Shown: positions 5,577-47,625 of the stretch, in pieces
Layout: each line of letters begins with the position of its first letter
How positions within the stretch are numbered: the stretch's first letter is position 1
Translations under genes and position numbers: made by a program
Assembly: GCA_937928005.1 (NCBI GenBank)
Contig: CALFVD010000004.1
Location: 1-48,170, forward strand
Source: an uncultured Neomegalonema sp.
GTDB taxonomy: Bacteria; Pseudomonadota; Alphaproteobacteria; Rhodobacterales; Rhodobacteraceae
DNA length: 48,170 bases
Reading direction: 5' to 3'
The notes under the pieces: generated by a model
What the model saw: only the letters and a program-made list of their open reading frames with translations
What the model was told of the DNA's origin: nothing
The model's database searches: none

Positions 5577-6143
5577 ATGCGTCTCGCCTCCTTCCTCGCT
5601 GCCGCGCTCGCGGCCACCCTCTCCCTCGGCACGCCTGCAATGGCGCAGGAGGAGGAGAAGACCGCCTTCGCCAGTAACGTCATTTTCTCGGCCCCCGGCA
5701 TCACCGTCCCGCGCGAGGAATTGCGCTATCCCGATGGCTCGACCGGCACGCTGGCCGATTATGAGGGCGACGTACTGATCGTCACGCTATACCAAAAGAA
5801 TTGCCCCTATTGCGTGCGCGAAATGCCTGTCCTCAACCGTTTATCCGGTGAAATGAAAGACGAGGGCGTGCGCGTCGTGGCGCTCAGCATGGATCAGGAT
5901 ATGGGCATGGTCACAGGTTTTCTGGAACAACACGAATTGTCCAACCTCGAACCGATCATGGACTGGGAAAAGGTCAACGGCTCGCTCTTCTCCATCGAAC
6001 ATTTTGGCCGCTTTTCCATCGCCACCCCGACCAGCTTTATCGTTGATAAAAAAGGCACTGTCGTCGCCCGTGTCTGGGGTCTCGTGGATTGGGATGGCGA
6101 CCCCGCCCGCGCCTTCCTCCGCTCGCTCGTCCTGCAAGGGTAG
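5577..6143 (+). CDS. Exported TlpA-family thiol-disulfide oxidoreductase, CPYC active site
   Basis: A 188-residue protein with a clear signal peptide (residues 1-23, ending AMA) and a TlpA/AhpC-type redoxin fold. The active site is NCPYCVREMP, with C76 and C79, and the later TSFIVDKKGTVV strand carries the cis-proline region and typical beta-hairpin. It is predicted to be a periplasmic reductant, for instance for cytochrome c maturation or repair of oxidised envelope proteins. It follows the CAGC paralogue and precedes an unknown exported protein with several cysteines, a possible substrate (inference). Confidence 0.87.
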   Translation: MRLASFLAAALAATLSLGTPAMAQEEEKTAFASNVIFSAPGITVPREELRYPDGSTGTLADYEGDVLIVTLYQKNCPYCVREMPVLNRLSGEMKDEGVRVVALSMDQDMGMVTGFLEQHELSNLEPIMDWEKVNGSLFSIEHFGRFSIATPTSFIVDKKGTVVARVWGLVDWDGDPARAFLRSLVLQG

Positions 6144-6205
6144 TCCTTCAACTAATTTCAACCTTACCCGCGTATCTTCTCCCCTAAACCTTGGGGGAGG
6201 AAAGA

Positions 6206-7645
6206 ATGCGCAAAGCAATGATGAGAGCGGTCGTGGTACTGGCCACGGTGGGATATGCGAGCGAGGCAACGGCGGGGAAATTCTCCTTCTTCACGGGCGG
6301 TTCCAAGAAAATCTCACGCACGGCTGATGACGCGCCCAAAGTCGATGAGGATGCCGTCGAACATGGTGCCATCGCCGATGGCCTTGATGCGGTCGGCGAT
6401 ATTGGCGGGGCCATCTATGACCACGCCACCGGAGACGAAGCCCCTACTGAAACCACACAATCGACCGGCGGCGACCTGCCCGATCTCGACGAAGACCCCG
6501 CCCGCCATATCGATTTCGGCGGCGGCATCACCGCCATGTTTCAGGATGGCCCCTTCGGGCGCACCACACTGACCATCAAGACTCCAAGCGGCACGATCAA
6601 GAGCTTTGGGATACGCGGCACCATGACCATCGCGCAGGAAGTCGCGCGCACCCTAAACCTGCGCACCCTGCCCGCCACCGGACAGGTCGAGCGCGATGCC
6701 TTGCTGGCCAGCGGTGCCCTGCGCCCCGCCACAGAAGCCGATATCGACGCATGGAAAGCAACGGCCCTGCGGCGTAGCCCCCACGCCTCGACCCGCATTA
6801 AGCGCGACCGGCGCAAACTCTACGTCCAGACGCGCCCGCTCAACGGCACCGAACTCCTGATCGGCGGGGCGTCTCGCTCGATCATCTTCCTCGCCCCCGG
6901 CATCCCGCTCGACCGGGCACCAATGGGGGCAAGCGCCTATTACACGATGGATGACGGGCGCTGCATGGGGATAGGTTCCGGCTGTCGCCGCTTTCACGAA
7001 CAGACCCACGAAACCGATACCGCCGCCTGCTTCCCCGATCTGCCCCGCAACGTGGAATTGCACGCTTTTGGCACCTATGAGGCAACCCCGAAACGTAAAT
7101 CCGACTTCAAGGTAGGGCGTAGCGATACAGATAAAACCGGCCAGATCGACATCTATGTCGCCCCCACATCCGATCCCGTCGTCTTGTTACTCGGCTCCCA
7201 TCGCCCGGTCGTCTGGGCGATCCATCGCGCCGAAGGGGCCAAAATCGCCGCAATCCTCGCCCGTGGCCATCATTCACAGGCCGTGGCGGGCGTGACCGAC
7301 GTACCCGTCCGTTTTTCCACGAGAAAGGACGGCCTCGCCCCCGGCTGCGGCGGCTATGCACATGATTACAATGCCAGCGCCAAACGCGATGAATGGTTCG
7401 AGGAAGCCAAAGCCATCTTCGGGCGCGCCGTGCATAATATAGACGGCGAGTATTACGGCGATGTCTTCGCCGTGGGCGAATGGGAAGGTCTCGACAATGT
7501 CGCGCCCCTGCCCGTCAGCTTGGACGATATCCGCGCCAGTGGTAAAGTCGAGGAACGCGGGATCGACATCCCCAAAGGCAAGCTAATGCTCCTCGGCTTC
7601 TTCGCCTTCATCTTCCGCAAACAGCTCATCAATGCGGTGACATGA
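6206..7645 (+). CDS. Exported protein of unknown function
   Basis: A 479-residue protein. ATG 6206 is preceded by GGGGGAGG, and the N-terminus looks like a signal peptide (RAVVVLATVGYASEATAG). Residues about 40-110 are acidic and low in structure; the middle is a mixed fold with no motif I recognise. Four cysteines sit in the exported part (GRCMGIGSGC, AACF, GCGG), which could form disulfides. A hydrophobic stretch near the C-terminus (GKLMLLGFFAFIF) may anchor or retain it in the membrane. Its position behind two thioredoxin-like genes suggests an envelope role. A TTG at 6191 is in frame but lacks a ribosome site. Confidence 0.75.
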   Translation: MRKAMMRAVVVLATVGYASEATAGKFSFFTGGSKKISRTADDAPKVDEDAVEHGAIADGLDAVGDIGGAIYDHATGDEAPTETTQSTGGDLPDLDEDPARHIDFGGGITAMFQDGPFGRTTLTIKTPSGTIKSFGIRGTMTIAQEVARTLNLRTLPATGQVERDALLASGALRPATEADIDAWKATALRRSPHASTRIKRDRRKLYVQTRPLNGTELLIGGASRSIIFLAPGIPLDRAPMGASAYYTMDDGRCMGIGSGCRRFHEQTHETDTAACFPDLPRNVELHAFGTYEATPKRKSDFKVGRSDTDKTGQIDIYVAPTSDPVVLLLGSHRPVVWAIHRAEGAKIAAILARGHHSQAVAGVTDVPVRFSTRKDGLAPGCGGYAHDYNASAKRDEWFEEAKAIFGRAVHNIDGEYYGDVFAVGEWEGLDNVAPLPVSLDDIRASGKVEERGIDIPKGKLMLLGFFAFIFRKQLINAVT

Positions 7646-36353: not shown

Positions 36354-37082
36354 ATGTCACGTACATGGCGGATGAGAGTGATTGTTGCACTGGGCATGGC
36401 CCTGCCCTGCCCTGCACTCGCCGATACCGCATTAGTAGCGGTGGCGACGAATTTCGCGGTTATCGCCGAAAAGCTGACCCAAGCATTCGAGGCGGCATCG
36501 GAGCATGAGGTGCGGCTGGTTTCAGGATCAACAGGTAAGCTGTATACGCAGATCGTGCGCGGGGCGCCCTTTGACGTATTCCTCGCCGCCGACCAAGCGC
36601 GGCCCGCGCGCTTAATCGACGAAGGGAAGGCGAGCGCACAGATGACCTATGCGGTCGGGCGGCTGGTTTTGTGGAGTAAGAACAGCACACCATCGGAGGC
36701 GGTGCTACAGGATGTGGAGCGGCTGGCCATCGCCAATCCAGCGTTAGCACCCTATGGCGTCGCGGCGATGGAAGCACTGGCGCATTATGGCCGGGAGGGC
36801 GAAGATGCGCCAGCACTGGTGATGGGCGAGAATGCGGGACAGGCGGTGGCAATGGTGGCGACGGGGAATGTAGCCTTTGGTTTGGTGCCATTATCGGTGA
36901 TGGCGGGTGATATGGGCGGCACGGCATGGACGGTGCCGAAGGAAGCACATGGGGCGATCCGGCAGGATGCGGTGCTGCTGGATGACGAGAATGTGGCGGC
37001 GGTGGCCTTTCTTGCGTTTCTTGGGTCTGAGGCAGCGGGGGAGATTATTGAAACAGGCGGATACGAGGTATCCGAACGATGA
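36354..37082 (+). CDS. modA: Molybdate ABC transporter substrate-binding protein
   Basis: A 242-residue periplasmic protein with signal peptide (1-23, ending ALA). Binding-protein motifs are VAVATNFAVIAEKL, LVSGSTGKLYTQI and APFDVFLAADQARP, typical of ModA, and FGLVPLSVM near the C-terminus. It captures molybdate or tungstate for uptake. A AAGGGAG site precedes ATG 36354. Translationally coupled to modB. Confidence 0.93.
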   Translation: MSRTWRMRVIVALGMALPCPALADTALVAVATNFAVIAEKLTQAFEAASEHEVRLVSGSTGKLYTQIVRGAPFDVFLAADQARPARLIDEGKASAQMTYAVGRLVLWSKNSTPSEAVLQDVERLAIANPALAPYGVAAMEALAHYGREGEDAPALVMGENAGQAVAMVATGNVAFGLVPLSVMAGDMGGTAWTVPKEAHGAIRQDAVLLDDENVAAVAFLAFLGSEAAGEIIETGGYEVSER

Positions 37083-37747
37083 GTGTCGATCTGGGGCCGC
37101 TCTGGCTAACGCTGCATCTGGCGGCGGTGACGACGGCGATATTGTTGATAATCGGGACGCCGCTGGCATGGTGGCTGGCGACAACCAAGGCACGAGGGCG
37201 GGCGCTGGTAGAGGCGGTCACGGCGCTGCCGCTGGTGCTGCCACCCACGGTACTGGGGTTTTACTTGCTGATCCTGTTCAGCCCAACCTCGCCTTTGGGT
37301 GGGGCGTGGGTTTCGGTAACGGGGGAGACGCTGACGTTCTCGTTTGTGGGGCTGGTGGTGGCATCGGTGATCTATTCCCTGCCCTTCATGGTACAGCCGT
37401 TACAGGCTGCGTTCGAGCGGGTAGGGCCGGGGCCAATGGAGGCGGCGGCGTCTTTGCGCGCGTCACGGCTGGATGCGTTCTTCACGGTGGCGGTGCCCCT
37501 ATCGGCGCGGGGGTTTCTGACGGCGACGGTGCTGACCTTTGCCCATACTATTGGCGAATTCGGGGTGGTGCTGATGGTGGGGGGGAATATCCCCGGCGAG
37601 ACGCGCGTGATCTCCATCGCGATTTACGAGCAAGTAGAGACGCTGAACTACATGGAGGCGCATGTATTGTCAGCGGGGCTGTTGGTGTTTTCGTTCATGG
37701 TGCTGGTGGTTGTGTATGCGCTGAACCGGCCCCGGATGATCGCATAG
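37079..37747 (+). CDS. modB: Molybdate ABC transporter permease
   Basis: A 222-residue permease with about five membrane helices and the ABC coupling (EAA) loop MEAAASLRASRLDAFFTVAVPL-like at about 120-141, plus LPLVLPPTVLGFYLL. The ATG overlaps the modA stop by four bases (ATGA). Unusually, the ATPase gene modC does not follow: modB ends in a hairpin and the next gene is on the other strand. Confidence 0.93.
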   Translation: MSVDLGPLWLTLHLAAVTTAILLIIGTPLAWWLATTKARGRALVEAVTALPLVLPPTVLGFYLLILFSPTSPLGGAWVSVTGETLTFSFVGLVVASVIYSLPFMVQPLQAAFERVGPGPMEAAASLRASRLDAFFTVAVPLSARGFLTATVLTFAHTIGEFGVVLMVGGNIPGETRVISIAIYEQVETLNYMEAHVLSAGLLVFSFMVLVVVYALNRPRMIA

Positions 37748-37849: not shown

Positions 37850-38086
37850 TCAGGCCGCCAGCGCGTCGGCACCTTTTTCTTCGAGCAAGACGCGCATGTC
37901 GCCTAGGTTCTGCATGCTCGTGATTTCGGGCATGGAGAACTGGACGCCGAAGGCCACTTCGACCGCGAGGAGCAGGTCGATATGACGGGCGCTATCCCAG
38001 TTGGGGGTGTTCTTGGCGTTGCTCTCGTCGGAGAGCAGGGTTTCGTCGACGTCGAGGACGTTGGCTACGAGCGTGGTGAGTTTCAT
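37850..38086 (-). CDS. Acyl-carrier-protein-like carrier protein
   Basis: A 78-residue acidic four-helix carrier. The phosphopantetheine site is S32 in NWDSARHIDLLLAVE, one residue pattern away from the usual DSLxxVE. AGAGGGA precedes ATG 38086. It is not the fatty-acid AcpP (different length and motif, no fab genes near). Lying behind the amino acid:carrier-protein ligase and MBOAT genes, it most likely carries an aminoacyl thioester, in the way DltC does. Confidence 0.85.
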   Translation of the reverse strand: MKLTTLVANVLDVDETLLSDESNAKNTPNWDSARHIDLLLAVEVAFGVQFSMPEITSMQNLGDMRVLLEEKGADALAA

Positions 38087-38150
38087 CTGAAGTCCCTCTT
38101 CAAGTATGCGGGGTCGCGATGCGCCCTGCTTTTTTTGTGTGTTTTTGTAA

Positions 38151-39365
38151 TCAGTCGAAAATCTGGTCACGCACGCCCGCAGGCCAGCGCATCGGGTCGA
38201 AGCCATGCTGCGTGAAGGCGGCGAGAATCCACCGCTCGATACCAAGACCGATGCAGCCGGTATGGGCAGGCTCGCCATCATTGGCGGTGATGTCGAACCG
38301 CTCGCCAAAGAAACGCCCGTGCAGGTTCACCGAACCACAGGCCATCTTCTTCGTGCCACCCTTGCCGTCGAGCACAGGGATAAGGATTTCGCTCTTCACT
38401 TCCATCGCCGCCTGGAAGAATTTCTTCGAGGCAGAGACAGTAGCAAAGAAGGGGTCCGTCGCGGTCTGGATCTGCATATCAAGATCGAAAGTCTTGGCCA
38501 GTTCCACCACCAGCGGCAGAGCGCGGCGGCGGCGGTCTGCGACGAAATCTTCTGTACCGACAAAGACGATCTCACGGACGTTGAATTCGTAGAGGCGGTC
38601 AAGACCTGAAGCATTGCGGGATTCGTAGCGGAACACGCGGCCCAACCAGCTCAATGCGAAGCCCGCATCATCGAGACGCTTGCCCTGAAGTGTCGGGTAG
38701 GCAGGGAAGCAGGCGGCGGGGTTCATGCACATGCCATCATGGTGCATATGCTCGCCTTTGGGCAAGATCGCACCTTCAGAGCAGGAGTTCGCAACGCGGA
38801 ATTCCTCAATCGCATCGAAGTCTTCCATCACGTTGCCAACGAAGGTGGCTTGGTTCGGATGGCTGTCGAAATACCCGCATTTATGCAGGACATCCGCATC
38901 GATGAAGCCGGGGAAGTGGCCGTCGACCGCGTCGAAGTTTTTCTCATACAGCTTGCCAGCCGTCTCGTTGACAAGGCGGGCGAGACGCAGGACGGGGCCG
39001 TTATAGGCAATCTGGCCTTTGCCGTAATCATGGACCCAGCCGCGACGGATGAATTCCTCGTTCACGCCAGACTGAAAGGGGCCGTCATCCTCGCGCACGT
39101 TCTCGGCGAAGGTCTTGATGTCGAAGCCGGTGCGCTGCTTGGCCATGACGGCGATGAAGCGGTGGGCTTTCTCGACGACTTCCTGTGTGTAAAGGCCGTC
39201 ACGAATTTCGAGAGCTGCGGTCTTACCGTCCTCGGAAATGCGGATGCGCTCCAGCTTGGGCGAGACGAAAACCGATTCCTTTTCGATATCGCTCGCAACC
39301 TCCACATCGACCACCATTGGCATGTCGATCTGTACGGTAACGGCACCGCCTTGCATCGTGTTCAT
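38151..39365 (-). CDS. Class II aminoacyl-tRNA-synthetase-like amino acid:[carrier protein] ligase
   Basis: A 404-residue homologue of the catalytic domain of atypical seryl-tRNA synthetases, lacking a tRNA-binding arm. Class II motif 2 is FRYESR-x(10)-YEFNVREIVFVG (R246 to E265), and motif 3 is GLGIERW (R378). C219, E265 and C371 have spacings close to the Cys/Glu/Cys zinc ligands of known amino acid:carrier-protein ligases, which activate Gly or Ala and load it onto a carrier's phosphopantetheine rather than on tRNA. This one has about 80 extra residues at the N-terminus. GGGGGA precedes ATG 39365; the carrier gene follows after 64 bp. Confidence 0.85.
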   Translation of the reverse strand: MNTMQGGAVTVQIDMPMVVDVEVASDIEKESVFVSPKLERIRISEDGKTAALEIRDGLYTQEVVEKAHRFIAVMAKQRTGFDIKTFAENVREDDGPFQSGVNEEFIRRGWVHDYGKGQIAYNGPVLRLARLVNETAGKLYEKNFDAVDGHFPGFIDADVLHKCGYFDSHPNQATFVGNVMEDFDAIEEFRVANSCSEGAILPKGEHMHHDGMCMNPAACFPAYPTLQGKRLDDAGFALSWLGRVFRYESRNASGLDRLYEFNVREIVFVGTEDFVADRRRRALPLVVELAKTFDLDMQIQTATDPFFATVSASKKFFQAAMEVKSEILIPVLDGKGGTKKMACGSVNLHGRFFGERFDITANDGEPAHTGCIGLGIERWILAAFTQHGFDPMRWPAGVRDQIFD

Positions 39366-39395
39366 AGTTGGTCCCCCAGTGTGGTTATTATCGAC

Positions 39396-39411
39396 GCGGT
39401 CCCCCGACCGC
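39396..39411 (-). repeat. Short hairpin in the MBOAT-ligase gap
   Basis: GCGGTC (39396-39401) pairs with GACCGC (39406-39411) across a four-base loop, in the 95-bp gap between the MBOAT gene and the ligase gene. No U tract follows; it may shield or separate mRNA segments. Confidence 0.45.
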
Positions 39412-39460
39412 TGCTCTTAGTAGGGCGCCCGGCTTACCGGATGCCCATGCTCTTGGATCG

Positions 39461-40981
39461 TTAGAAGCTGTAGTAGAGGAAGCTCGTATCGCCCCCCAGT
39501 GATGTGAAGCCGAGCACCATGATCAGCGCCGCAATTACGGCCCAAGCGGGCGTTGGCGTCCAACGAACGGGCGTGTCGGTGAAGGTTGCATCCTCAGGCT
39601 GCGGGTCAGAACTGATCCACGTACCGCGCAGGATTTGCTGCGAATTCGGTGCGAGCAGGACGATGGCACCCAAAACAACGATCATTGCGGTGGCCCCGGC
39701 TATGTCGAGCAGAACCAGATCGGAACCAAACCCCGCACCCGTGAGCGTCGTAATCCCCCACATGCTAGACAGCATGGTTATGGCGACATCCACCGATGGA
39801 GCGCGGAACATGACCAACCCGCTGACCACCACGGCCATCGTGAGGGTCCAGCCCAAGGGCGCGCCGAGCGAAGGCATCTTGAAGTGCTTCCAACCATTGT
39901 CGATGGCCAGCGCAAGACCGTGGATCAGGCCATAGACCACGAAGGTCCACCCTGCACCATGCCAGATACCCGCCATAACGAAGGTGTAGAAAATCGGCAG
40001 GGCGGAGGCTTGAAGCCATTTGCGTGACGAGGAATGGCCGTTTTTCATAGCCGAGCGCGTGTTGTTCATGGCCATGGGCGTGAACAGATACGTCGTGAAG
40101 AAGCGGGTCATCGTCATGTGCCAGCGACGCCAAAAGTCGGAGATGCTGGTCGCCTTGAAAGGCGAGTTGAAGTTAAGTGGCAGTTTCATGCCGAACATGA
40201 AGCCCAGCCCCACGGCCATGTCGGAATAGCCGGAGAAGTCGAAATAGAGCTGGAGCGTATAGGCCAGTGAGCCAACCCATGCCTCAACCGTGGCTATCGC
40301 CGCGCCCAGAGCCACGCCATCGAAAGCGAGATTGGCGTAGGGCGCGATGCTGTCGGCGAGGATAACCTTTTTGAACAGGCCGATACCAAACATCGTCAGG
40401 CCGACGGAGAGCATGGTCGCGCTGAAGGCGGAACCCTTGCGGTCTTCCATCTGGCCGAAAATATCGCGCTGAAGAAGCAGCGGGCCAGCAGTGACACAAG
40501 GAAAGAAGGTTGCGAACAGGGCGTACTTGGCCAGACCGACGCGCTTGACCTGACCATTCAACGCCTCGATCAGGAAACCGATCTGGGTGAAAGTGAAGAA
40601 CGACACACCAACAGGCACGATGATGTCCAGATGGGAAATCCCCGTTCCAGCCAATGAGTTCGCAATATCGATGAAGAAATTCGTGTACTTGAAGTAACCC
40701 AGTGCAAAGATGTTTGCCACGATGGCAGCGACGGCCAGCATACCCGCCGGTTTCTTCTGCTGTCGGCGCAGGCGGATCGCGGTGCCCATGATATAGTTGA
40801 ACAGGACTGACCCGACGAGGATTGCCGCCAATACGGGCGCAAACATCGCGTAGAAAGCCACCGATGCCGCTGCAAGATAAGCATAGACACCATTCCAGCC
40901 AAGCAGGCGATGCACGAGCAGAAACCCGACATAGCACGCAGGCAGGAACAGCAAGATGAATTGGAAAGACGTGAAAGTCAT
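39461..40981 (-). CDS. MBOAT family O-acyltransferase (DltB/AlgI type)
   Basis: A 506-residue polytopic membrane enzyme. The MBOAT histidines are H288 in FWRRWHMTMTRFF and H341 in GIWHGAGWTFVVYGLIHG; LYFDFSGYSDMAVGLGFMFG and PLNFNSPF are further family segments. MBOATs of this type carry acyl groups across the inner membrane onto an extracytoplasmic sugar or polymer: DltB passes D-Ala, AlgI acetyl. ATG 40981 with GGAGA ahead is chosen over 41059. It starts 20 bp after the membrane-anchored hydrolase-like gene. Confidence 0.92.
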   Translation of the reverse strand: MTFTSFQFILLFLPACYVGFLLVHRLLGWNGVYAYLAAASVAFYAMFAPVLAAILVGSVLFNYIMGTAIRLRRQQKKPAGMLAVAAIVANIFALGYFKYTNFFIDIANSLAGTGISHLDIIVPVGVSFFTFTQIGFLIEALNGQVKRVGLAKYALFATFFPCVTAGPLLLQRDIFGQMEDRKGSAFSATMLSVGLTMFGIGLFKKVILADSIAPYANLAFDGVALGAAIATVEAWVGSLAYTLQLYFDFSGYSDMAVGLGFMFGMKLPLNFNSPFKATSISDFWRRWHMTMTRFFTTYLFTPMAMNNTRSAMKNGHSSSRKWLQASALPIFYTFVMAGIWHGAGWTFVVYGLIHGLALAIDNGWKHFKMPSLGAPLGWTLTMAVVVSGLVMFRAPSVDVAITMLSSMWGITTLTGAGFGSDLVLLDIAGATAMIVVLGAIVLLAPNSQQILRGTWISSDPQPEDATFTDTPVRWTPTPAWAVIAALIMVLGFTSLGGDTSFLYYSF

Positions 40982-41001
40982 GCTGGTCTCCGTGAAGCGT
41001 T

Positions 41002-42231
41002 TCAGGAACGCTTCTGAGCGTCTAGTTCGAGGAATTGGTCGATGATCACCTGAAGGCATTCAGGGTTGGAATGTTCACCGTCGATATACTGATCAGGGCG
41101 GCAGCCGAGCGGGTAAGGGTCAAAACCACCGATGATCTTTAGGCCGTAGGTCGAGGCGAACTTGCGGGTCTGCTCCTCGATCTTCCTCAAGCCGTCTAGA
41201 TACGGGCTGTTCTGTACCGCATCCCAGTAGACCGGATTAAAAGGTGGATGAGCGAGGTAGATTTCGACACCTTGGGCGACGAGATATTCAAGCATCTTGT
41301 CCACCGCTTCAATGGCGGGCGGATAGAGTGGCGGCGGCGAATTACGCTTGGAATAGGCGAAAGATAGCGCATCGCCCTTGGCACGGCCCGGCGTGAAGGC
41401 TTCGTCATGGAGCATCGACCAAGAGATCGATCCATCGGGTAGAAGCGTATCGAGTGTTGGGTGCTTCTTGAGGTCTGACGCACCGGGTTGCACGGGCGAT
41501 TTAAGCCAGCGCATCACGTTTGCCTTTAGCAGCGGCAAAGACAACGTCTGTTGCAAGCGTGGTTTAAGCGGGTCGGTGAAGTGGTCATGCGCAGGAATAC
41601 CGAGGCGTTTGGCCATGGCACGATAATCATCCAGAATCGGAACCCAAAGCCAATCTGTACGATCTTCGACCTTCGTGAACATGTTGTCACGGATCGAAAT
41701 AATCATGCGCTTGGGCAATTTATCGTGCTGAATGAACATCTCAGGGACGCCGAGAATATCCTCGTAGTAATCGCGGTGGACATGGGCGTTATAGAGATCA
41801 ACGCCACGGCCCAGCTCTGCATGGGCTTCCTGCCAATGGCTCGCACCGAGGATGGCGACATAAGGTGTACGGTCGAGATTGGCGATGTGTTGGTGGCGCA
41901 GGCGGCGTGTCTCGATATTTAGATCGTAGGTCAGGTAACTTTTGCCACTGGCGAGAATTTCAGCTGTGCGTTCGATATGCGCATCATCATGCAGCAGAGG
42001 CGCGAGCGCCGTGTTGGCAGATCGCACGCCGAGAAGGCCGATGAGGAACAAGGCGAAAGTGAGAAGAATGTAGCGCGCTGCTGAATCGGTACGTCCTAGA
42101 CCCTGTTCGCCCTTAGCCGTGACAAGATCAGTCGTTGCGTGGTCCCGGTCACGCCGCCCTATCGCATTGCGAGGCAGCGCGCGGCGATCCGCGCTTTTCC
42201 GCTCCATGTAGTCTTCTGAAGTCGTGTTCAT
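41002..42231 (-). CDS. Membrane-anchored SGNH-like protein (DltD/AlgX-like partner)
   Basis: A protein of about 409 residues: charged cytoplasmic N-terminus, one membrane helix (about 52-69, YILLTFALFLIGLLGV), then a periplasmic SGNH-type domain. A nucleophile motif GASHW (S131) and a late DGEH (D384, H387) make up a plausible Ser-Asp-His set, as in DltD and AlgJ/AlgX partners of MBOATs. Start is uncertain: ATG at 42261, 42231 or 42207; only 42231 has an AGG close by. First gene of the operon. Confidence 0.82.
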   Translation of the reverse strand: MNTTSEDYMERKSADRRALPRNAIGRRDRDHATTDLVTAKGEQGLGRTDSAARYILLTFALFLIGLLGVRSANTALAPLLHDDAHIERTAEILASGKSYLTYDLNIETRRLRHQHIANLDRTPYVAILGASHWQEAHAELGRGVDLYNAHVHRDYYEDILGVPEMFIQHDKLPKRMIISIRDNMFTKVEDRTDWLWVPILDDYRAMAKRLGIPAHDHFTDPLKPRLQQTLSLPLLKANVMRWLKSPVQPGASDLKKHPTLDTLLPDGSISWSMLHDEAFTPGRAKGDALSFAYSKRNSPPPLYPPAIEAVDKMLEYLVAQGVEIYLAHPPFNPVYWDAVQNSPYLDGLRKIEEQTRKFASTYGLKIIGGFDPYPLGCRPDQYIDGEHSNPECLQVIIDQFLELDAQKRS

Positions 42232-42369: not shown

Positions 42370-43893
42370 TTAGTTTCCACACCGCCCCGACTGCAAATTG
42401 GCTTCGGTCATGCCGTGTGTATCGGCAATCACGGGCAGCGTACGATCCAGTGGAAAGGCAACTGTGACTTGCGTGCCCTCACCCGGCACCGATGCAAGCG
42501 TGATTCGCGCGTCATGCGCGTTGGTCATTAGCCGCGCAAGAGGCAGACCCAGCCCAATACCTTCATAGGAGCGGCCTAGCGTATCGTCAGCCTGATAAAA
42601 AGCATCGAAGACGCGCTCTTGCTTTTCTTCAGCGATACCAATTCCGTCATCTACAATCATCAGAATTCCAGCACCATCAGACATGCGCTTACATGAAATA
42701 TTAATGCTTGCAGGGTCGGCAGTGAAACGAACGGCGTTATCGAACAGGTTATGGACAATCATTCGCAGCGCATATTGATCAATGCGTAGCGCATCGATTG
42801 ACGCATCGACATCGACCGAAACCTGAAGATCGCGTTCGGGGTTTGCATTCTGGATAGGCTTGATCACATCAAGAATAAAATGACGAATATCCGTGATTGT
42901 CTCATCGTTGAAAGTATGCTGACCCGACTCGATGCGGGAAAAGGAAATTACGGTGTTGATGATATCCAGCAGTGACTTGCCGCTCTGGTTGATTTGATCC
43001 GCATATTCCGTGAGGATCGGTGTTGGCGCTTCACGTACGATCAGATCAGAAAAGCCAATAATGCCATGCAGCGGGGTGCGCAGTTCATGGCTGATATTGG
43101 CAAAAAACGAGGATTTTGCGCGACTTACGGCTTCAGCATCGCTCTTGGCGCGCAGAATGGAGTTCTGCATCGCTTTTTGCTGTGTCACGTCAATAGAAAC
43201 ATAGACCGCACCACCACGCGGCGTGCGCGTGCGGCTGACGGCGTAAACGGCACCGTCATCCAGACCACCGATCTCAATTTCGCTTAATTCGGTCGTATCA
43301 AGGCTATCGGCAATACGATCAATTAGATGGGCGGCTTTATTCGTATCCTGTGCGGCCCCTTGCTCGCCCGCAACCGCATCAAGCATCTGATTAAAACGGC
43401 TGTTGCGAGCAGTGCAGACGCCATTTTGTTCGATAGCTGCAATTCCAGCACCAGCATTTTCCAGTGTGGTAGACAGCAGCTCGGTCTTGCTGGCCAGCGC
43501 CTTCATCGCATCGGCATGGGCGATAGAATATCGGATCGTGCGCTCAAGTGTGCGAGCATCCAGCTCCGACTTATCGAGGTAATCGGACGCACCAGCTTCG
43601 GTCGCCGCAACGTCGATATCATGCTGACCCACGCCCGTAAGCAAGACCAGAGGGACGATAACGCCATTGTCACGCGCCATACGAATGAACTCAAGACCCG
43701 TTCGCCCCCCGATCCGGTAATCGACAAAGCATATGTCAATTTCGGACGAAGAAAGACGTTCGAGACCCTGTTCATAGGCTTCGATCCATTCGAGGTTGAC
43801 GGAGACGCCGGAGATCTCTTCGAGGGTTTCTCGTGTGATCTCGTAGTCGTCTTCGTCGTCCTCAATCAGAAGGACAGTGAGGTCGCGTTTCAT
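42370..43893 (-). CDS. Receiver-histidine kinase hybrid
   Basis: A 507-residue cytoplasmic signalling protein with no membrane helix. An N-terminal receiver domain has acidic residues E11-D13 and phospho-acceptor D58 (CFVDYRIGG); a PAS-like region follows (about 130-235); then a HisKA domain with H269 (FFANISHELRTPLHG) and an HATPase domain with N-box NLFDNAVRF and G-boxes DDGIGI and GIGLGLPLA. It can both receive a phosphoryl group and act as a kinase. It follows the single receiver protein after 11 bp. Confidence 0.9.
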   Translation of the reverse strand: MKRDLTVLLIEDDEDDYEITRETLEEISGVSVNLEWIEAYEQGLERLSSSEIDICFVDYRIGGRTGLEFIRMARDNGVIVPLVLLTGVGQHDIDVAATEAGASDYLDKSELDARTLERTIRYSIAHADAMKALASKTELLSTTLENAGAGIAAIEQNGVCTARNSRFNQMLDAVAGEQGAAQDTNKAAHLIDRIADSLDTTELSEIEIGGLDDGAVYAVSRTRTPRGGAVYVSIDVTQQKAMQNSILRAKSDAEAVSRAKSSFFANISHELRTPLHGIIGFSDLIVREAPTPILTEYADQINQSGKSLLDIINTVISFSRIESGQHTFNDETITDIRHFILDVIKPIQNANPERDLQVSVDVDASIDALRIDQYALRMIVHNLFDNAVRFTADPASINISCKRMSDGAGILMIVDDGIGIAEEKQERVFDAFYQADDTLGRSYEGIGLGLPLARLMTNAHDARITLASVPGEGTQVTVAFPLDRTLPVIADTHGMTEANLQSGRCGN

Positions 43894-44380: not shown

Positions 44381-46372
44381 TCAGTCGTTTTCTGGCTGCT
44401 GTTTTTGCTGGATTGGGAGCGTAACGATGAACGTCGCTCCCTGACCTTCGATACCGTCGGCATCAATCAGGCCGCCATGGCGCTCCACAATCTTGCGAAC
44501 GGTGGCAAGGCCAATGCCGGTGCCCTCGTATTCGTTGCGTCCGTGAAGACGCTGAAAGATCGTGAATATTTGGTCTTTGTATTTGTTATCGAACCCGATC
44601 CCATTGTCAGCAACGCGCAACACGCACATATCTGGCTGATCATCGAAATGTTCATTTCGTATAATCTCTGCACTAACGGTGACGACGGGCGTAACGCCGG
44701 GCCGTTGAAACTTTAGGGCATTACCAACAAGATTTTGTAGAAGCTGGCGCATCTGGGTACGGTCTGCATCGATTACAGGCAGACGCTCGTAATCCACCCG
44801 CGCATTGGTCTCCTCGATACGGATTTGTAAATCTCCGACAACGCCATCTAGGCATTCGCCAAGGTCGATTTTCGAGAATGGCTTTGCATTTGTCGTAACG
44901 CGAGAATATCCGAGGAGGTCGTTGATAAGCAGGCGCATACGGCTCGTCGCATTCTGCATCCGCTCAACGTATTTCTTACCGCCATCAGGAAGATCATCGG
45001 CGTATTTGGTAGCAAGGCGGTCGCCGAAAGTTTCGATCTTCCGCAGCGGCTCCTGAAGATCATGCGAAGCCACATAAGCGAAATCCTGCAACTCTCGGTT
45101 GGATACCTCAAGCTGACGTGTATATTGGGTTAGGCGTTCTTGAGAGCGTTCAAGTTCGGTAACATCCTGATAAGTGGCGATGGAGCCGCCCATACCGATC
45201 GGTTGGTGCATCACGGCGATGATGCGGCCATCAGCTAGATATTGGTTCAGCGTTGCTTGGGTCTTGAGACGGGCATGATCGGGACGCGCTGCGCGGGCGC
45301 GGGCTGCGTCGGCGGCGGAATAATTGCCCAAACTGATCGAATATTCCATGATCTCGCCGAGCAGGATGCCCGGTTTCACCACTTCAGGCGAAAAACCGTA
45401 CATCTGAAGATAGCGTTTGTTGCAGACAAGAAGACGCTGATCTGGCCCGAACATGCAAAGCCCTTGGACCATATTGTCGAGGGCAGCTTCAAAATGGATA
45501 TTGCGGCTACGCAGTTCGTCTGAAACGCGCAGGATTTCTAGCTCGCGATTCTTTAGTTCAGTGATATCGGTGCGAATGCCGACAATGCCACCATCTGAGG
45601 TGCGCTTTTCATGGACGCGAATCCAGCGCCCATCGCTCAGTTGTATCTCGTGTGGCTCACCGGGATTGCGATGCTCATGCATCCGCCATTCAAAGAATTC
45701 CTTGGCGCTTGCCTTGTCGCACTCAAACCCTTGCCGCTCGATATTCACTTCGAGCATGTCGGCATATTTGCGACCTGGTGCGATAATATCGGCAATGTTG
45801 GGATTCATTTCGATATAGCGGCGATTGTAAGCAATCAGCCGATCTTCAGAATCGAAAAGCGCAAAGCCATCAGCCATCGAATCGAGCGCATGGGACATGC
45901 GCGCGCGCGCCGCACTCGCCATCATCTCCATGCGATCATTATCCGGCGCCCCAACACCGGGAGCGGCGACAGGGCGAACCGATTCGACGATTTGTCCATC
46001 CGCAAGCAGCCGACGATGAACGTAAATCTCTACCCCGGTCGGCGCAGTGAAGCGGAACGAAAAACCACCAGCGGATGATAGGCGCTCAAGACCACGGCGA
46101 ATCATCTCTTCAGATGACGACATATCGTCCGAAGTACGGGCGATACTGATGCGCGCAAGCTCTTCAAGGGTTACTCCGGGGCGCGTATCGGACAACGAAT
46201 ATCCGCAAAGATCCCTGTAGCGAGCATTACAATAGACCAGCCGGCGAACGGGGTCGAACATCGCCAAACCCGAATCAGTGCCCTCAAGAAGACCCTGCAG
46301 AATCGCACTGGGCACACCTTCGGATTCCTGCTCCGTATCACTGGAAAATCGAGCATCGCTCAGGCTTGTCAT
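44381..46372 (-). CDS. PAS-domain histidine kinase (phytochrome-like kinase module)
   Basis: A 663-residue soluble kinase. Three PAS-type sensor domains lie at about 25-120, 155-275 and 285-410 (segments GLAMFDPVRRLVYCN, GFALFDSEDRLIAYNRRY, GLCMFGPDQRLLVCNKRY), then a HisKA box with H437 (FAYVASHDLQEPLRKI), and an HATPase domain (NLVGNALKFQ, DNGIGFD, GTGIGLATV). No membrane helices. ATG 46372 is behind GGAGGA, so 46414 is not used. The ligand is unknown. Confidence 0.9.
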   Translation of the reverse strand: MTSLSDARFSSDTEQESEGVPSAILQGLLEGTDSGLAMFDPVRRLVYCNARYRDLCGYSLSDTRPGVTLEELARISIARTSDDMSSSEEMIRRGLERLSSAGGFSFRFTAPTGVEIYVHRRLLADGQIVESVRPVAAPGVGAPDNDRMEMMASAARARMSHALDSMADGFALFDSEDRLIAYNRRYIEMNPNIADIIAPGRKYADMLEVNIERQGFECDKASAKEFFEWRMHEHRNPGEPHEIQLSDGRWIRVHEKRTSDGGIVGIRTDITELKNRELEILRVSDELRSRNIHFEAALDNMVQGLCMFGPDQRLLVCNKRYLQMYGFSPEVVKPGILLGEIMEYSISLGNYSAADAARARAARPDHARLKTQATLNQYLADGRIIAVMHQPIGMGGSIATYQDVTELERSQERLTQYTRQLEVSNRELQDFAYVASHDLQEPLRKIETFGDRLATKYADDLPDGGKKYVERMQNATSRMRLLINDLLGYSRVTTNAKPFSKIDLGECLDGVVGDLQIRIEETNARVDYERLPVIDADRTQMRQLLQNLVGNALKFQRPGVTPVVTVSAEIIRNEHFDDQPDMCVLRVADNGIGFDNKYKDQIFTIFQRLHGRNEYEGTGIGLATVRKIVERHGGLIDADGIEGQGATFIVTLPIQQKQQPEND

Positions 46373-46665
46373 CGCGGTTCCTCCGGTCGTGTACCCGGAA
46401 TTCGATCCGGTCACAGAAGGTGTTTACCGCCTACGTTCATAAAAAACGGTGAAGCCGCAGCCTTTTTTGGATTTGGCCTGTGCTGGGTCGCGATTAGACA
46501 GCGCCACATGAAGGCATACAAAAAGTTCTTTTTTAAAACTATTCCTAAAGAATCTAATTCCATGCAAAATCTCGGATTCAGCGGAACGGCTTGTTCATAT
46601 TGCTGTGGTCTATTGTGACCTCTTGACGACATGCATCAAAGCGTATCTGCGAGCTGGAACCGATT

Positions 46666-47625
46666 TTGCGTACACCGATCATTTCCGAACAGGGACGGAC
46701 GTTTTCCTCACTCCTTATTGCTGGAGCGATCGGGGCAGGTCTGGTTATACCCGATCTTGCAGCGATGCTTGCACCGCATGTGCTGACAGCATTGTTCTTT
46801 GTCGTCGTATTTTCGCTCAACTCCCAGACACAGAGTCCGATATCCTTACTGCGCAAACCCGATTCTTTTACCGGATTGTTCATGCTGTGGCAGATGGCGG
46901 GCATTCCCATGATTGTCACTATCTTCGCCACCCTGTCAGGATGTAACCTGACCATAACGGCCATATTGATTGCAATCACAACCGCCGGATCAGTCTTTGC
47001 CAGCCCCGCTCTGGTGCAGATGGTGGGCCTTAACCGTCAGATCGCCATACGCGGCATGATCCTGTCGACATGTATGATGCCTGTTTCTCTGCTCGTGTTC
47101 GGCGAAATCAATGGCGTGCTACCGCTGGATCTGAACTTCGTCAATTATGGCATTCATATTCTGAAATTCATCGCACTGCCGCTCGTCATCTCCAGTGTGT
47201 TCTGGAGAATCAAGGCAATGATGCCGCGTGACGCCGCGATTGCGACGCAACGCGGGATGCACTGGGCATCAACGATTGCCTTGATGATTTTCTGCGCAGG
47301 CATGATGCAGGAAATTCACCTGAACCGCGAAAACCATTTCGACGATTTGCTTTTTTATGCAGCCGTTGCAATCACTATGGCCGTCATGATGTACGCCATG
47401 ACAGTTGCGGTTTTCTATCACTATGGCGCAGAACGGGCGATGACTGCTGGCCTATTGGTCGCGAACCGGAATGTGGCGTTAAGCTTTGCGCTGTTGAGTT
47501 CAGTATTTCCGCCCGAAGTGATGACATTTGTGGCCGTGTCACAGTTTCCAATCTTCCTAACGCCGTTCTTGATGCGGATATACACGTCAATGCGCACAGC
47601 CAATGGCGAGATTGTCACCGAATAG
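46666..47625 (+). CDS. Polytopic membrane protein, bile acid:sodium symporter (BASS)-like
   Basis: A 319-residue inner-membrane protein with nine to ten hydrophobic segments. The late segment AMTAGLLVANRNVALSFALL resembles the conserved helix 9 region of BASS-type transporters (GNRN/MQN-AL pattern), so it is probably a sodium-coupled organic anion transporter, though the substrate is unknown. The first codon is a TTG at 46666 with GGA about ten bases upstream; no better start is seen. The 293-bp gap before it, shared with the divergent kinase operon, shows no further clear element. Confidence 0.6.
   Translation: MRTPIISEQGRTFSSLLIAGAIGAGLVIPDLAAMLAPHVLTALFFVVVFSLNSQTQSPISLLRKPDSFTGLFMLWQMAGIPMIVTIFATLSGCNLTITAILIAITTAGSVFASPALVQMVGLNRQIAIRGMILSTCMMPVSLLVFGEINGVLPLDLNFVNYGIHILKFIALPLVISSVFWRIKAMMPRDAAIATQRGMHWASTIALMIFCAGMMQEIHLNRENHFDDLLFYAAVAITMAVMMYAMTVAVFYHYGAERAMTAGLLVANRNVALSFALLSSVFPPEVMTFVAVSQFPIFLTPFLMRIYTSMRTANGEIVTE

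Follow-up and report, generated by a model that had tools for sequence, protein, structure and literature searches.

A candidate envelope aminoacylation relay in Neomegalonema, encoded by a SerRS-derived carrier-protein ligase gene beside MBOAT and SGNH genes

Ligases and carrier proteins are known to feed aminoacyl transfer in the Gram-negative envelope in AlmEFG, which places glycine on lipid A, and in the Bordetella dra system. The ligases of both are DltA-like, and AlmG is not known to be an MBOAT–SGNH pair. In the Dlt system of teichoic acid D-alanylation (DltA, DltB, DltC, DltD and DltX), the MBOAT is carrier-fed, as described in the accessible part of PMC12148441. The same part of that source presents PatAB, AlgIJX and WssH-type O-acetyltransferases as systems without a carrier that draw on an acyl-CoA donor, identifies FxYxxF as an acyl-shuttle motif that receives the acyl group on its Tyr in PatA and DltX, and describes no BASS-fold partner for MBOAT–SGNH systems. 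The biological role of the amino acid:[carrier protein] ligases is called unknown in the accessible text of PMC9437257. For their classic operon, PMC2922099 predicted that an amino acid is joined to a sugar derivative at the cell surface, so the general idea of surface aminoacylation is not new, and the MBOAT–SGNH route is what differs in the locus described here. Searches of open-access literature, largely at the level of listed entries, turned up no description of this combination of genes.

The window, the whole stretch of DNA analyzed, comprises 48,170 nt from an uncultured Neomegalonema sp. (GCA_937928005.1, contig CALFVD010000004.1), in which open reading frames not below 55–60 aa were considered. 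The sequence-only reading had placed four minus-strand genes at 37850..42231, with roles as an SGNH-like anchored protein (DltD/AlgX role), an MBOAT, a class II synthetase-like ligase and a carrier. These coordinates were correctly read, and the roles are backed by Pfam, PDB matches, a profile search and a model of the SGNH protein. The four genes stand, but the unit is larger than was proposed, taking in two histidine kinases, a receiver and a BASS-fold gene. The unidirectional run consists of a PAS kinase (46414-44381), a receiver (44369-43905), a receiver-kinase (43893-42370), SGNH (42231-41002), MBOAT (40981-39461), ligase (39365-38151) and carrier (38086-37850), with intergenic gaps, in that order, of 11, 11, 138, 20, 95 and 64 bp. 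The dN/dS values indicate purifying selection on the four cassette genes and, together with sequence conservation, rule out that their frames are chance frames. Beside the carrier, on the plus strand, 36354-37747 encodes an SBP_bac_11 substrate-binding protein and a BPD_transp_1 ABC permease that resemble modA and modB; two other loci (L043 671-3528 and L039 6252-7253) have TRAP transporter genes (DctP, DctM) in the vicinity of the cassette.

The ligase (404 aa; 38151..39365, minus strand) is a long-form SerRS-derived amino acid:[carrier protein] ligase. Phmmer searches of the PDB match it to Bll0957 (3mey, 4.2e-34) and to type-2 SerRS (3w3s, 5.4e-31), and its Pfam match is tRNA-synt_2b, without an AMP-binding match. 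Judged by its score against the NCBIfam equivalog NF005479 (163.2 bits, with a cut-off of 357), it is a relative of that equivalog outside its membership. Residues C219, E248 and C371 align with the Cys/Glu/Cys set of Bll0957 and SerRS, which we take to be zinc-binding, and are invariant in 10 rows. In length, segment 306-326 equals its Bll0957 counterpart and falls three residues short of that in M. kandleri SerRS, and the engineered Bll0957 chain 4h2w departs from wild type at the aligned position; presumably this region is the carrier-recognition helix. On the loss of the N-terminal tRNA-binding domain of SerRS, a mark of the Bll0957 family, the picture is mixed: residue 52 pairs with residue 140 of 3w3s, a shortfall of about 88 N-terminal residues, yet residues 52-145 still align with SerRS, which makes the ligase intermediate in make-up between the short ligases and SerRS. 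The pocket residues were set aside as a guide to the amino acid, as F306, S345 and N347 are common to Bll0957 and an authentic SerRS and position 310 is variable; Gly, Ala and Ser therefore all remain candidates. A quick tree of 61 rows unites the 25 cassette ligases (SH-aLRT 96); since the program gives a long-branch warning, their deeper placement is unsure. In named genomes the closest ligase is 98% identical and belongs to a MAG labelled uncultured Neomegalonema sp.

The adjoining carrier protein (78 aa; 37850..38086, minus strand) has its predicted phosphopantetheine site at Ser32 (codon 37993-37991), which is invariant in 14 rows. Its profile matches 2lml, a putative acyl carrier protein, in the PDB (8e-13). 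Pfam PP-binding is matched by 13 of 14 relatives; the window carrier itself, at 0.05, misses the Pfam cut-off. Two PPTase matches are present in its own genome.

The MBOAT acyltransferase (506 aa; 39461..40981, minus strand; PF03062, 8.8e-18) contains H288 and H341, the latter presumably the catalytic His of the MBOAT family. It scores 182.7 bits against the DltB model TIGR04091, below the cut-off of 375; DltB is nevertheless the nearest model, and the MBOAT profile matches only the DltB structures 6bug and 8jem in the PDB. The protein ends in FLYYSF (residues 501-506; 39464..39481, minus strand), a C-terminal acyl-shuttle motif with Tyr503 as predicted acceptor. F501, Y503, Y504 and F506 are invariant in 13 rows, and FxYxxF forms the C-terminus of all 23 cassette MBOATs seen and of 26/26 among all MBOATs listed. 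By sequence, then, the cassette MBOAT looks carrier-fed as in Dlt and Pat/Alg-like at its C-terminus. A second MBOAT in the same genome (G000:C86 54305-55531) is 42% identical to that of the window and ends in FLYFQF. Because this paralogue, for which no ligase neighbor is known, also ends in the motif, FxYxxF is no proof of a carrier donor.

The SGNH protein (409 aa; 41002..42231, minus strand) is DltD-like and predicted to be membrane-tethered by a TM helix at about 51-69. Its Ser131, Asp384 and His387 are invariant in an alignment of relatives. The predicted model matches DltD and PatB and is best covered by DltD; by sequence, the alignment profile found no match in the PDB. The DltD family PF04914 has no match in the same genome or in 141 further genomes of the class. 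Fusions tie the SGNH protein to other members of the locus: a BASS-fold domain stands at its N-terminus at three loci (L040, L042 and L051) and a receiver domain is joined to it at L054 (PF00072, 5e-9).

A search with two peptide patterns found 23 cassette loci, a lower bound given that search; with the window and L054, these make 25 loci that are mutually non-independent. Eight of the 23 are Neomegalonema MAGs, and the remainder are labelled Hyphomicrobiales, Rhizobiales, Hyphomicrobiaceae, Rhodobacteraceae, Alphaproteobacteria or Proteobacteria. The order SGNH-MBOAT-ligase-carrier, as originally read, is conserved across the 25 long-ligase loci, with SGNH, MBOAT and carrier each present at 23, the PAS kinase and the single receiver each at 19, and BASS at 16. 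Of four loci with an incomplete cassette, three are cut by contig ends (the L037 contig starts 52 bp before the ligase, and those of L050 and L051 end inside it), and L035 is truly without SGNH and MBOAT. The carrier is absent at 2/25 loci, only where the contig ends inside the ligase. MBOAT and SGNH are both present at 23/24 loci having upstream sequence, and there the MBOAT directly adjoins the ligase. The long-type ligase is rare, occurring in 2/385 genomes of the class sample, one of them the window's own, in 10/14 genomes of the genus and in 12/61 relatives overall. In the order sample, 2/292 genomes match, the own genome and one whose match is short-type (G817). In one of the ten genomes of the genus, G013 (L013, G013:C318), the ligase match consists of two adjacent pieces, as if the gene were interrupted.

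Upstream of the cassette lie its putative regulators. The receiver-(PAS)-histidine kinase (507 aa; 42370..43893, minus strand) has Response_reg, HisKA and HATPase_c above the Pfam cut-off and PAS_7 below it. It is preceded by a single-domain response regulator (154 aa; 44369 to 43905, minus strand; PF00072, 7.4e-19; 19/25 loci) and by a histidine kinase with three PAS_7 stretches (677 aa; 44381..46414, minus strand; PF12860, HisKA, HATPase_c; 19/25 loci). The contigs of the six loci without the PAS kinase and the six without the single receiver are too short to hold these genes, assuming the gene order of the nearest relatives. A receiver occupies the second kinase slot at 23/25 loci; the one fused to SGNH at L054 belongs to this slot, and at L043, the one Hyphomicrobiales locus scanned there, the slot holds a receiver-GGDEF-EAL protein.

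Divergent from the run is a bile-acid-symporter-like membrane protein of the BASS fold (319 aa; 46666..47625, plus strand), assigned from its model and Foldseek (AlphaFold pLDDT 81.9; ASBT 8oyf, TM 0.75). Pfam gives no match for the window protein and a weak Mem_trans match for 5/15 members (best 4.9e-4). The gene lies near the ligase at 16/25 loci and is unseen there at nine: L033, L037, L038, L039 and L050 (cut short), L031, L036, L041 and L035. The L031 contig ends about 750 bp past the kinase, and its edge holds only a chance-level BASS match; the genomes of L036 (G004) and L041 (G012) carry the BASS gene elsewhere. Among 18 chosen, related genomes, BASS occurs in 9/11 with a cassette-type MBOAT and in 0/7 without one; the two cassette-MBOAT genomes lacking it are G006 (78% complete) and G013. 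The kinase-receiver genes may switch the relay proposed below, and the BASS-fold protein may work with the SGNH protein.

Ligases in other settings provide the controls. Stretches with flanks were taken for 15/15 non-own matches of the class sample, 19/43 of a further sample and one of the order sample; minus one cassette locus, these give 34 stretches, some short on one side. The sequence-only reading had agreed to count it against itself if ligase and carrier were found mostly without MBOAT and SGNH genes. Within the ligase clade they are not, with both genes at 23/24 loci; among other ligases that concern is borne out, an MBOAT being present in 3/34 stretches (L055, L056 and L099) and, at L099, on the strand opposite to the ligase. 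At L055 (5499-10155) and L056 (8214-12509), from genomes G409 and G220, genes for a carrier, a shorter-type ligase, a GNAT, an MBOAT ending in FIYFRF and an SGNH-like protein run in one direction, with the GNAT gene between ligase and MBOAT. Because these two ligases form a separate tree branch, ligase–MBOAT coupling seems to have arisen more than once. Genome G220 has both this parallel run and a window-type cassette. The cassette SGNH protein gave no meaningful match to the two SGNH-like proteins of these loci by hhalign with shallow profiles. The classic operon, as in Azospirillum, encodes a carrier, an acyl-CoA dehydrogenase, the ligase, DUF1839 and a glycosidase. Together with the Streptomyces cluster described next, this operon shows the ligase–carrier pair to be a loader used in several settings.

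Two further observations concern other ligases. On a plasmid of Streptomyces sp. NBC_00557 (L119 6275-8912), a ligase relative annotated as a hypothetical protein lies in an NRPS/PKS-type cluster with genes for a carrier, an acyl-CoA dehydrogenase and a 3-hydroxyacyl-CoA dehydrogenase-like protein and NRPS genes; we presume that it is perhaps a serine loader for an aminomalonyl unit. In other members of the phylum (L101-L110), a ligase of roughly 400 aa has a carrier after it at 8/10 loci, without an MBOAT, and at some loci a conserved gene of 371 aa that lacks a Pfam match is convergent with the ligase gene.

The exceptional locus L035, in genome G003, keeps the ligase, carrier and sensors and lacks SGNH, and neither the cassette MBOAT nor BASS has a match anywhere in that genome. 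Its 598-bp gap (5611-6209) was considered as a remnant of SGNH and MBOAT and set aside, since nothing in it exceeds chance: shuffled copies of the gap match at least as well as its best hits (SGNH, E 0.021; MBOAT, E 0.63). Constraint on the G003 ligase is similar to that on the others (dN/dS 0.06-0.09 versus 0.05-0.08). Because this ligase is nested among Neomegalonema ligases, the lack of MBOAT and SGNH reads as loss. The case leaves room for a second ligase–carrier function or for an assembly fault.

The cassette probably encodes a signal-controlled transmembrane aminoacylation relay that runs from ligase to carrier, to Tyr503 of the MBOAT, to the SGNH protein and on to an envelope acceptor. 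By homology, the SerRS-derived ligase would use ATP to activate a small amino acid (Gly, Ala or Ser) and attach it as a thioester to the carrier's phosphopantetheine arm. The MBOAT would then take the aminoacyl group off the carrier and place it on its own Tyr503 in FLYYSF, and the tethered SGNH protein would take it on Ser131 and pass it to an extracytoplasmic envelope molecule. This is read from observed features: the protein families, the conservation of their catalytic residues, the shuttle motif, the gene order and the BASS–SGNH and receiver–SGNH fusions. The relay is favored because gene order is kept, the Cys/Glu/Cys set and the carrier Ser are conserved, segment 306-326 of the ligase agrees in length with Bll0957, the MBOAT profile matches DltB, all 23 cassette MBOATs end in FxYxxF and the SGNH model matches DltD and PatB, and also because of the parallel coupling at L055 and L056, the purifying selection and the two PPTase matches. 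Counted against it are G003 without MBOAT, SGNH or BASS, the 31/34 other ligases without an MBOAT, FxYxxF in the paralogue, the window carrier's miss of the Pfam cut-off and the fact that no acceptor or polymer-synthesis gene was recognized as conserved at the cassette loci, whose flanks were scanned in part.

Some of these points would suit an operon in which two functions share one regulation, the MBOAT and SGNH proteins O-acetylating an envelope polymer from acetyl-CoA in the manner of PatAB or AlgI and the ligase and carrier serving something else. The C-terminal motif is common to acetyl-CoA-fed MBOATs, G003 retains ligase and carrier under similar constraint without an MBOAT, and most other sampled ligase–carrier pairs also lack one. 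We nonetheless consider this unlikely, given the MBOAT that directly adjoins the ligase at 23/24 cassette loci with upstream sequence, the second ligase branch with the same MBOAT coupling, and the DltB matches of the MBOAT profile and DltD coverage of the SGNH model. A less probable variant still is that the amino acid undergoes a change on the carrier before export, such as N-acylation or oxidation, so that the envelope receives a derivative. The GNAT gene between ligase and MBOAT at L055 and L056, the acyl-CoA dehydrogenase and DUF1839 of the classic operon and the dehydrogenase and NRPS genes around the Streptomyces relative are consistent with such chemistry, but no amino-acid-modifying enzyme was recognized among the conserved cassette genes.

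If the favored relay from ligase to SGNH protein is correct, one orphan branch of synthetase-like ligases gains a physiological role in envelope aminoacylation, for which the cassette supplies a hypothesis at residue level. An MBOAT–SGNH relay whose shuttle is part of the MBOAT would then accept an amino acid from a carrier, and a kinase-receiver system (with a GGDEF-EAL protein in one scanned relative) would be linked to Gram-negative surface decoration. Some alphaproteobacteria appear to use an enzyme repurposed from protein synthesis to load an amino acid, which then crosses the membrane and ends on a molecule of the cell surface; the loader of the known bacterial system is unrelated. More tentatively, and with some doubt on our part, the cassette might be a third way to power transmembrane acylation, combining a synthetase-derived ligase, a carrier and a Pat/Alg-type MBOAT with built-in Tyr shuttle, under kinase-receiver gating able to act directly on the SGNH protein and with BASS-fold assistance.

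Compared with the described systems, the cassette follows the Dlt scheme of a ligase, a carrier, an MBOAT and an SGNH protein. It differs in its loader, a class II SerRS relative where DltA is AMP-binding (ANL-type), in carrying the shuttle motif on the MBOAT itself where Dlt has its Tyr on the separate DltX microprotein, and in its BASS and kinase companions. Identity with a Dlt operon was rejected, as the cluster has no DltA-type ligase and its MBOAT falls below the DltB cut-off. With the PatAB, AlgIJX and WssH-type O-acetyltransferases it shares an MBOAT ending in FxYxxF and a separate SGNH protein with Ser/Asp/His; unlike these, it has a ligase and a carrier in the same gene run. Bll0957-type ligases resemble that of the cassette in their SerRS-type core, Cys/Glu/Cys set and adjacent carrier, whereas the cassette ligase has 404 aa, a SerRS-alignable N-terminal part and a separate tree branch, and its neighbors are MBOAT and SGNH genes in place of the acyl-CoA dehydrogenase, DUF1839 and glycosidase of the classic operon. 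Most likely the cassette operates as Dlt does, with a loader of the synthetase type and an MBOAT of the Pat/Alg type, and it lies outside both the Dlt and the Pat/Alg families as they are defined.
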